Source of the DNA: an uncultured Flavobacteriaceae bacterium | GTDB taxonomy: Bacteria > Bacteroidota > Bacteroidia > Flavobacteriales > Flavobacteriaceae | Assembly: GCA_947494715.1 (NCBI GenBank) | Contig: CANLWG010000001.1 | Span: 744,001-808,000, forward strand | DNA: 64,000 nt | Direction: 5' to 3' | Part shown: piece after piece, positions 9,409 to 10,825 of the stretch | Layout: every line of letters begins with the position of its first letter | How positions within the stretch are numbered: position 1 is the first letter of the stretch | Notes under the pieces: generated by a model | What the model was told of the DNA's origin: nothing | The model's input: the letters and a program-made list of their open reading frames with translations, nothing else | Databases searched by the model: none | Translations under genes and position numbers: made by a program

Positions 9409-9419
9409 TATAATCGATA

Positions 9420-9518
9420 TCGCTTATAATATTTGTATATAAGCTTTTTTGCTTATAACGTCAAATATTAGCAAATTTACTTATATTTGCATATATTAGC
9501 GTTTTAGCTTATACATAT
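9420..9518 (+). promoter_or_regulatory. GCTTATA-repeat control region of the satD operon
   Basis: This AT-rich stretch carries GCTTATA at 9422-9428, its reverse complement TATAAGC at 9438-9444 (together an inverted repeat with a 9-bp spacer), and further direct copies at 9451-9457 and 9507-9513. A TATATTTG box at 9482-9489 fits the TAnnTTTG promoter consensus and lies between the last two copies. The arrangement suggests an operator, plausibly for the HTH of the SatD protein encoded immediately downstream. This is inference from repeat placement only. Confidence 0.5.
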
Positions 9519-10130
9519 ATGATTGCAATAATCACTGGAGATATCATAAATTCAGAGGAGCATGAAACCTCAAAGTGGATGGGTGTTCTAAAAGATTACC
9601 TACTTCAGTTGGGCAAGTCCCCCTACGACTGGGAAATCTACAGAGGTGATGAGTTTCAGTTAAGGGTCCCGGAAGAACGGGCATTGGAAATATCCATACA
9701 TATAAAGGCCTTGATTAAATCAATTAAGAACCTTGATGTTCGTATGGGCATAGGCTTAGGTACTGAGACGTTTACCAGCAATCGGGTAAGTGAATCCAAT
9801 GGGCCGGCATATCAACGTTCGGGTAGAACTTTTGAATCGCTTAAGGAAGATAAAACGAATTTAACCATTGCCGCTGGCCATGAATTTTACGATCGTACGT
9901 TGAACTTAATGCTGAAACTAGCTTTGGATTTCATGGATGACTGGAGTACGGTTTCGGCAGAAATCGTGGCTTTGGCCTTGCAAAACCCACAGGCTTCGCA
10001 GCAAGAAACAGCCAAGCAGCTTAATATTCAACAATCTGCGGTAAGCCAACGTCAAAAAAGGGCAAGATTGGATTTGGTGTACGAACTTTTGGAATATTAT
10101 GCCCAAACCGTAAAGGAGCTACGACTATGA
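9519..10130 (+). CDS. SatD-family protein: cyclase-like N-terminus plus C-terminal HTH
   Basis: The protein has 203 residues and belongs, by overall pattern, to the SatD family, whose biochemical role is not known to me. Read by eye, residues 1-145 follow the order of a class III nucleotide cyclase domain: ITGDIINS with Asp8, YRGDEFQL (41-48) with Asp44, RMGIGLGTE (75-83), and GPAYQRSGRTFESL (95-108) with Arg103, in the places where cyclases have F-D-I-x-G-S, G-D-E/G-F, R-I-G-I-H-T-G-E and G-P-x-V-N-x-A-A-R-L. The cyclase Asn is Gln99 here. Residues about 150-185 (QASQQETAKQLNIQQSAVSQRQKRARLD) are a helix-turn-helix. The stop overlaps the start of the DUF3307 gene by 4 bp. Confidence 0.75.
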   Translation: MIAIITGDIINSEEHETSKWMGVLKDYLLQLGKSPYDWEIYRGDEFQLRVPEERALEISIHIKALIKSIKNLDVRMGIGLGTETFTSNRVSESNGPAYQRSGRTFESLKEDKTNLTIAAGHEFYDRTLNLMLKLALDFMDDWSTVSAEIVALALQNPQASQQETAKQLNIQQSAVSQRQKRARLDLVYELLEYYAQTVKELRL

Positions 10131-10825
10131 TTCTTTTTATAAAATTGGTATTGGCCCATTTAATAGGGGATTTTTTATTGCAGCCCAATAGGTGGGTGAT
10201 TCATAAGGAGGTAAACAAAGTGACTTCTAAATACCTTTATTTTCATGTATTGGTTCATTTTGTCGTTACCATGTTATTGTTATGGAATTTTCAGTATTGG
10301 AAACTTGTATTGGCCATTGTTATATCCCATTATTTCATCGATTTGGCTAAGTTGTACGCCAACCCCTTTTTTAAACTAAAGAGCATTCCTTTTTTCATTG
10401 ATCAGGCATTTCACATTCTAGTTCTGTATATATGTGCCTATTCCGGAAATTTAATCGGGCAAACCATTTTCTTATTGGAAAAGATAGACTGGGCCTTACT
10501 CACCGCCATCGTGTTCGTAAGCTATCCGGCTGCCATTATCATGGGCAAATTGCTGGAAGGAATGTCGGATAGGATTGAACTGGATCACAAATCCCTTCCC
10601 GGTGCAGGTAAATATATCGGTATTATAGAACGATTGTTTGTGTTAGCATTCATTATTTTAGGACGATGGGAGGTCATTGGTTTATTGATAACTGCAAAGT
10701 CTGTTTTTCGTTTTAACGATTTAAAGGAAAGCAATAGTCGAAAACTTACCGAGTATATCTTGATAGGCACCTTATTGAGTTTCGGTATTGCCATAGTAAC
10801 GGGAATTATTTATACAAAATTTTAG
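10127..10825 (+). CDS. DUF3307 multi-pass membrane protein
   Basis: The protein has 232 residues with about six or seven membrane segments. It opens with the DUF3307 signature AHLIGDFLLQP. Four polar pairs spaced i,i+4 fall on successive N-terminal hydrophobic segments: His11/Asp15, His40/His44, His68/Asp72 and Asp92/His96. Such a pattern is what a metal site inside the membrane would look like, as in intramembrane hydrolases, although no activity is known to me for this family. The ATGA overlap with satD means the two are cotranslated, and the pairing of SatD with DUF3307 is frequent in Bacteroidota. Confidence 0.8.
   Translation: MILFIKLVLAHLIGDFLLQPNRWVIHKEVNKVTSKYLYFHVLVHFVVTMLLLWNFQYWKLVLAIVISHYFIDLAKLYANPFFKLKSIPFFIDQAFHILVLYICAYSGNLIGQTIFLLEKIDWALLTAIVFVSYPAAIIMGKLLEGMSDRIELDHKSLPGAGKYIGIIERLFVLAFIILGRWEVIGLLITAKSVFRFNDLKESNSRKLTEYILIGTLLSFGIAIVTGIIYTKF

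Follow-up and report, generated by a model that had tools for sequence, protein, structure and literature searches.

Class III nucleotide cyclases (PF00211) have in common with SatD the palm fold predicted for it, a pair of Asp residues, the RxGIG strand and a helix after Gly95, which in most SatD homologues carries an Arg at position 102 or 103 (SatD numbering), and the motifs D-I-x-x-S and G-D-x-F are also common to both. SatD differs from them in lacking the class III Asn (found in 0 of 92 homologues) and in being joined directly to a helix-turn-helix (HTH). GGDEF diguanylate cyclases (PF00990) have the GDEF hairpin and the palm fold in common with SatD, with a near-equal profile score and with DgcB as the first-ranked Foldseek match, whereas the SatD residue at the place of the first GGDEF Gly (position 42) is never Gly, 87 of the 92 homologues having Arg or Leu there. 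Mycobacterial cyclase–HTH fusions of the Rv0386 type likewise combine a cyclase-type domain and an HTH in one chain; these proteins are much larger than SatD and include an ATPase part, and we know of no phased palindromes or membrane partner in that type.

The Panoptes pair OptS/OptE (mCpol plus a membrane effector) is likewise a two-gene operon encoding a minimal palm protein and a membrane protein. According to the excerpts available of PMC12657218, OptE alone stops colony formation, and growth is restored by wild-type OptS but not by catalytically dead OptS; the palm protein is needed to survive its partner, and the same logic is proposed here for the SatD pair. The SatD pair differs in possessing an HTH and palindromes, an HTH of OptS not being mentioned in those excerpts, and in its second protein, since OptE has an S-2TM-beta domain whereas the SatD partner analysed here matched only DUF3307 in Pfam. 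By its Pfam matches SatD did not fall into the mCpol family: PF18182 (mCpol) was absent from the Pfam matches of this SatD, from its own genome and from the 25 families shown for 32 members.

SatD itself has so far been a name without a mechanism in the literature searched (open-access PMC). In the excerpts available it is named only as an acid-tolerance or essential gene, and no fold, partner or operator is given there (PMC10326533, PMC11323703); no paper on SatD as a cyclase was found among the papers listed by the search. In S. pyogenes, satD appeared essential in the transposon studies published so far (emm1, emm28 and emm49) and yet accessory, being present in 178 of 249 genomes and absent from 71 (excerpts of PMC11323703). 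The puzzle of an essential yet accessory gene gains concrete tests from the locus described below, namely a palm fold with an invariant Asp pair, a conserved palindrome step and a membrane module for which Pfam has no family. This locus lies in a 64,000-nucleotide stretch of DNA from an uncultured Flavobacteriaceae bacterium (the window).

A predicted palm domain joined to a helix-turn-helix

The satD gene and the parts of its product are located as follows.

9519 to 10130, forward strand: satD, encoding 203 aa with a palm domain followed by an HTH at the C-terminus (PF16264; AlphaFold2 model; Foldseek)
9519 to 9953, forward strand: palm (nucleotidyl-cyclase-type) domain, residues 1–145 (model; hhalign to class III and GGDEF profiles)
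9540 to 9542, forward strand: Asp8, predicted metal ligand 1 (92 of 92 homologues)
9648 to 9650, forward strand: Asp44 in GDEFQ, predicted metal ligand 2 (92 of 92 homologues)
9825 to 9827, forward strand: Arg103, which may be the transition-state Arg (kept at this position in 56 of 92 homologues; 86 of 92 have an Arg at either 102 or 103)
9954 to 10076, forward strand: HTH, residues 146–186 (Sigma70_r4 and HTH_24 matches; modelled helices)

The window SatD matched PF16264 with 42.9 bits (cut-off 29), residues 2–186 corresponding to model positions 2–199 of 211 (Pfam). A sequence-only reading had taken the protein for a minimal class III cyclase joined to an HTH, and the motifs on which it drew were present in the order and at the residues that it gave: ITGDIINS (Asp8), YRGDEFQL (Asp44), RMGIGLGTE (Arg75) and GPAYQRSGRTFESL (Gly95, Gln99, Arg103). 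The AlphaFold2 model of SatD (51 sequences, comprising the window and 50 close relatives) had a pLDDT of 95.5 and a pTM of 0.92. Its palm elements were strand 2–10, helix 17–31, strands 38–41 and 45–51, helix 52–67, strand 73–81, helix 96–111 and strand 115–118, followed by a helix at 122–139. The HTH was modelled as helices 144–155, 161–168 and 172–181, and SatD scored just below the cut-offs of Sigma70_r4 and HTH_24.

DgcB ranked first when the model was compared with the PDB using Foldseek (E 8.7e-5) and was the sole match with E <0.001; the next rows were class III cyclases, GGDEF proteins, GTP cyclohydrolase III, Cas10/Cmr2 and cUMP synthases. Judging from their titles, the best 50 matches (930 had E up to 10) are all palm cyclases or polymerases or proteins carrying such a domain. 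TM-scores were modest (0.27–0.44 by query length). The Foldseek viral library gave no match with E <0.001 for the SatD model, its first row being a diguanylate cyclase (E 0.011). Solved relatives of SatD were also sought by sequence and rejected: the best matches fell in the HTH, and those to the palm part were 14-3-3, thiamine-enzyme and mutase chains with E 0.037 or worse, which were taken as chance.

The palm superfamily is described, in the excerpt available of PMC2904730, as an RRM-like palm in which strand 1 ends with an Asp and the hairpin of strands 2 and 3 holds an acidic residue. In the model, Asp8 lies within strand 1 and Asp44 in the strand 2/3 hairpin, and SatD is accordingly predicted to belong to this palm/nucleotidyl-cyclase superfamily, with both Asp placed as in that description. 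The sequence-only reading had named structure prediction with fold comparison as its check and the lack of a palm as its refutation; a palm fold was found, and the AlphaFold2 model and Foldseek together support the fold, the two Asp at the places that a palm requires and the joined HTH.

Conservation was assessed in an alignment of 92 homologues, made up of the window protein, 50 close-relative loci, 30 distant homologues (15–24 % identity to the window protein) and 11 plasmid loci. Asp8, Ser12, Gly43, Asp44 and Gly95 were identical in all 92 sequences; the conservation of the Asp pair equals the best in the SatD family, and both Asp of the class III two-Asp criterion are thus present throughout as predicted metal ligands. 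Glu45 was found in 84, Phe46 and Gln47 in 89 each, Arg at position 75 in 78 (His in the other 14) and a basic residue at position 109 in 86 (Lys 81, Arg 5). Position 103 was occupied by R in 56, E in 16, K in 13 and other residues in 7. The sequence-only reading had staked its case on Asp8, Asp44 and Arg103 being conserved, of which the two Asp held without exception and Arg103 at its exact position did not; as 86 of the 92 have an Arg at one or other of positions 102 and 103, an arginine on the helix after Gly95 may still be of importance.

Residues 1–145 were also compared with class III and GGDEF profiles by hhalign, as the same reading had suggested, and both matched above controls. With 48 of the 92 rows in the SatD profile (most close relatives left out), the scores were 36.4 for class III (probability 75 %) and 35.6 for GGDEF (probability 76 %), while none of 14 unrelated neighbour-gene families exceeded 20.3. 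When 37 rows were used in an earlier run, the scores were 32.5 and 26.8, respectively, with modest probabilities (53 and 23 %), and 60 column-shuffled SatD profiles in that run reached at most 25.3 for class III and 18.3 for GGDEF; a comparison of the class III profile with the GGDEF profile scored 25.6. The class III alignment of the 37-row run paired Asp8, Gly43-Asp44 and RMGIGLG with class III motifs and ended before Gly95, leaving the Arg helix unaligned.

Membership of class III, as the sequence-only reading had worded it, was rejected: the transition-state Asn was found in 0 of 92 homologues (position 99 being Gln in 41, His in 15, Thr in 15, Lys in 6, Ala and Val in 4 each, Ile and Tyr in 3 each and Arg in 1), and the GGDEF profile was resembled as much as the class III profile. 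Membership of the GGDEF family was rejected as well, the first Gly never being present at position 42 (R 57, L 30, K 2, T 2 and A 1), with the GDEF part largely kept. Because the class III and GGDEF scores are nearly equal, SatD looks like a separate palm family about equally distant from both.

Phased palindromes upstream of satD

The sequence-only reading had reported the cyclase-like domain and left unmentioned both the membrane partner and a set of phased palindromes directly upstream of the gene.

9409 to 9428, strandless: palindrome copy 1, degenerate, TATAATCGATATCGCTTATA
9438 to 9457, strandless: palindrome copy 2, perfect 7-bp arms, TATAAGCTTTTTTGCTTATA
9466 to 9485, strandless: palindrome copy 3, TATTAGCAAATTTACTTATA
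9494 to 9513, strandless: palindrome copy 4, TATTAGCGTTTTAGCTTATA, ending 5 nt before the satD ATG

These four 20-bp palindromes precede satD at steps of 29, 28 and 28 bp. The palindrome pattern had 10 matches on both strands of the window, eight of them in the array, and none of 100 shuffles reached 10. Every perfect copy in the window's own genome sits at the satD array. With up to one mismatch allowed, 11 matches were found in this genome, comprising seven in the array and four at three other places, compared with seven for a backwards control pattern; a wider SatD regulon was therefore not seen in the own genome.

Among the 50 close relatives, 46 retained at least two copies, with a step of 28 or 29 bp in 44 and of 56 bp in two. 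The window-type palindrome sequence was not found in L021, L048, L049 and L050, of which the last three possess another palindrome at steps of 28. The SatD of L021 has the window's recognition helix; no phased palindromes and no PEMT neighbour were found at that locus.

The best palindrome pair was then sought in 34 further loci (L021, L048–L050 and L052–L081), a set that includes near-identical loci of one genus, which is answered by the thinned counts given below. It was spaced at 28 or 29 bp in 26 of these and at 56–58 bp in four; the 28/29 step had been derived from the window and its close relatives, and the 56–58 class was added after viewing the same 34 loci. The two classes together were reached by 14.6 % of 680 shuffles and by four of 41 other ORFs of those loci. 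The same scan placed the pair at 28 or 29 bp in nine of the 11 plasmid loci (shuffles 3.8 %), or seven of nine independent loci given two near-identical pairs, the upstream DNA of these loci being first inspected in the scan itself and their start codons being hand-picked. The two that failed the 28/29 test were the Fusobacterium and Salinivibrio plasmid loci.

After thinning to below 70 % identity, 37 of 50 loci had the pair at 28 or 29 bp and eight more at 56–58 bp; below 50 % identity the counts were 19 of 24 and two (shuffles 5.0 and 6.7 %), and below 40 % they were 13 of 15 and none. Shuffles across the thinned sets gave 4–5 % at 28/29 and 6–8 % at 56–58. When the 92 loci were taken together, 28 or 29 bp accounted for 136 of the 194 steps between adjacent copies, and three copies were the commonest number (42 loci). 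Six of the 92 fell under the pair-scan threshold (L021, L025, L061, L078, L147 and L150), although L025 had three copies at 28 bp by motif scan. The palindrome bases vary by lineage (TATTAGC/GCTTATA, TGTTTCA/TGATACA, TAGCC/GGCTA and GTTCGCC/GGCGAAC), while the step is constant and the 28–29 bp spacing is kept from Flavobacteria to haloarchaea.

Similarity between HTHs was correlated with similarity between palindromes when taken simply (r 0.31, p 0.0005), but beyond palm similarity the partial r was 0.03 (p 0.22), in a set of 44 loci selected for having a pair at the expected steps with a score of at least 24. Since HTH similarity adds nothing beyond palm similarity, the link from HTH to site is drawn from position and generality, which make SatD the candidate binder of the palindromes. 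The constant step is read as a geometry that may be set by SatD–SatD contacts. At the short locus L056, five palindromes at 28 bp steps stand ahead of a SatD of 142 residues that ends before the HTH.

The membrane partner and a possible mechanism

The gene that follows satD encodes a membrane protein whose C-terminal part recurs after SatD.

10127 to 10825, forward strand: partner gene, encoding a membrane protein of 232 aa (predicted all-helical) and sharing its first 4 bp with the end of satD
10133 to 10444, forward strand: DUF3307 (PF11750) part of the partner, residues 3–106 (Pfam); not universal, absent from stand-alone partners
10601 to 10822, forward strand: universal SatD-partner membrane module, residues 159–232 (GxxER..K..R..Y-LIG-LxS)

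DUF3307 was the sole Pfam match of the window partner above cut-off and is misleading as a name for it, since the common part is the C-terminal module of about 74 residues (G-x-x-E-R, K, R, Y-x-LIG-x-L-x-S). This module is often a stand-alone protein of about 104–115 aa and is elsewhere joined to differing N-terminal membrane parts, DUF3307 in some loci and another in L052–L062. Searches with 34 members of the module gave nothing better than E 0.002 in Pfam or than E 0.005 in NCBIfam; no S-2TM-beta domain was recognised in the window partner (Pfam), and no nucleotide-binding domain was recognised in the module. The partner model was less certain than that of SatD (pLDDT 82.7, pTM 0.65), with 10-residue means of 62–85 over the module part (residues 161–232) and of 49 at 151–160. 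No known fold was matched (Foldseek best E 1.5). The DUF3307 part (residues 2–105) matched the phage membrane protein family phrog_2470 (E 3e-12).

In 80 of 81 loci, counting that of the window, a partner gene followed satD in the same orientation; the short locus L056 had none, and the partner of L061 was in two pieces. The module also followed SatD in all 11 plasmid loci (E ≤2.6e-18). Of 296 genomes of the phylum, 105 had the module and 109 had SatD, identified with a profile from this work; 102 genomes had both, three the module only and seven SatD only. Four of these seven (G076, G091, G257 and G283) had weak partial SatD matches, and in G116 SatD was cut before the HTH. SatD lay within 1.2 kb upstream on the same strand for 111 of the 119 module matches in these genomes. 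The pairing of SatD and membrane module is near-obligate. In L074, from a genome of the window's phylum, and L146, on a haloarchaeal plasmid, the SatD hairpin reads KG[TI]DE and the partners have E-N for E-R in the module.

The reading favoured here, with moderate confidence, is that SatD is a nucleotide-gated autoregulator on a phased DNA array that restrains a possibly harmful membrane protein. A gene that can be lacked but not lost is typically the antidote or repressor of a harmful partner. The essential yet accessory satD of S. pyogenes would fit a gene restraining something harmful, and the nucleotide-gated autoregulator is favoured because of this suggestion of restraint and because Panoptes is the nearest worked example. 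The N-terminal palm would bind a metal-nucleotide at Asp8/Asp44, and the HTH would bind the palindrome array directly 5' of its own start codon; binding would repress or tune the satD–partner operon and so keep the membrane protein in check. One SatD dimer would occupy each palindrome, with the palms of adjacent dimers touching and the nucleotide perhaps at the palm–palm interface, as in cyclases, and the geometry of the dimer contacts would fix the 28–29 bp step while the bases drift. A shift in the nucleotide pool would loosen the array, and the partner would rise. We infer all four components of this scheme, namely that SatD is the binder, that a nucleotide is bound, that binding is cooperative and that the partner is harmful. 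In keeping with the caution of the sequence-only reading, SatD may sense a nucleotide and not make one. If the favoured reading is true, prokaryotic signalling would gain a transcription array under nucleotide control and perhaps also a new membrane effector held under restraint.

A bolder version is speculative and rather doubtful. SatD and the module would form a nucleotide-signalling pair not described before, common to bacteria and archaea. In it, a palm enzyme would assemble into a polymer on its own phased operator array, with nucleotide between the touching palms, and would be synthase or sensor, repressor and antidote of a harmful membrane protein in one; a drain of nucleotide (acid stress, phage) would then open the array and free the partner.

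The main rival, unlikely but to be taken seriously, holds that SatD is an active synthase whose cyclic mono- or dinucleotide is bound by the partner, keeping it off (Panoptes-like) or switching it on (Pycsar/CBASS-like), and that the HTH and palindromes only set the dose. The two invariant catalytic-type Asp, the basic residues at 109 and at 102 or 103 (each in 86 of 92 homologues), the active synthases among the matched folds and the layout of a palm protein beside a membrane protein would all suit an enzyme, and the growth rescue of OptE by OptS (excerpts of PMC12657218) would match the essential yet accessory satD. The missing class III Asn and the missing GG of GGDEF argue against a synthase, as do the module's lack of a recognised nucleotide-binding domain and the result of PADLOC, in which none of four proteins matched a model; a known anti-phage defence system was rejected on the same result.

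That the palm is a dimerisation scaffold only, and SatD an ordinary autorepressor acting without nucleotide, is improbable. Palindromes and an HTH alone would account for autoregulation, and the residues at the class III Asn and Arg places are variable, but the invariance of Asp8, Ser12, Gly43, Asp44 and Gly95 down to 15 % identity is hard to explain without a metal-phosphate ligand. A true class III cyclase cut to its core is very improbable, the paired motifs and the Arg at 102 or 103 being outweighed by an alignment that leaves the Arg helix outside, by the absence of the Asn and by the equally good GGDEF match with 48 rows.

Distribution and genomic setting

The closest relatives of the window SatD in the 50-locus set (genome_contigs) were from Ulvibacterium (96 and 91 % identity), followed by Pricia, Pseudozobellia and Pelagihabitans (73–74 %) and, below these, mostly by Maribacter and Arenibacter. 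Relatives of the window's PEMT and RdgB neighbours were present in 45 of the 50 close-relative loci, so the pair appears to have been largely inherited in place in those loci. Across the phylum the pair is patchy. PF16264 found SatD in 66 of the 296 genomes (60 over cut-off) compared with 109 for the profile made here, four of them weak partial matches, and the SatD family is under-annotated in the window's phylum. In the window's own genome (G000), class III cyclases were matched four times and GGDEF not at all.

No relative of the window SatD was found in viral_contigs or phages, and none of the SatD of L053 in phages; a phage or viral origin of SatD was rejected on these results. SatD pairs were found on large plasmids of Vibrio, Halorientalis, Haloplanus, Sphingomonas, Agrobacterium, Natronosalvus, Fusobacterium, Segatella, Pseudoalteromonas (two) and Salinivibrio, and the Vibrio lentus and Agrobacterium plasmid records are typed as conjugative. 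Some of the plasmid flanks (L142–L152) carry conflict-type genes, such as an Rpn nuclease in L142 and a nucleotidyltransferase plus HEPN in L145, and some of the plasmid copies of SatD are annotated merely as hypothetical protein.
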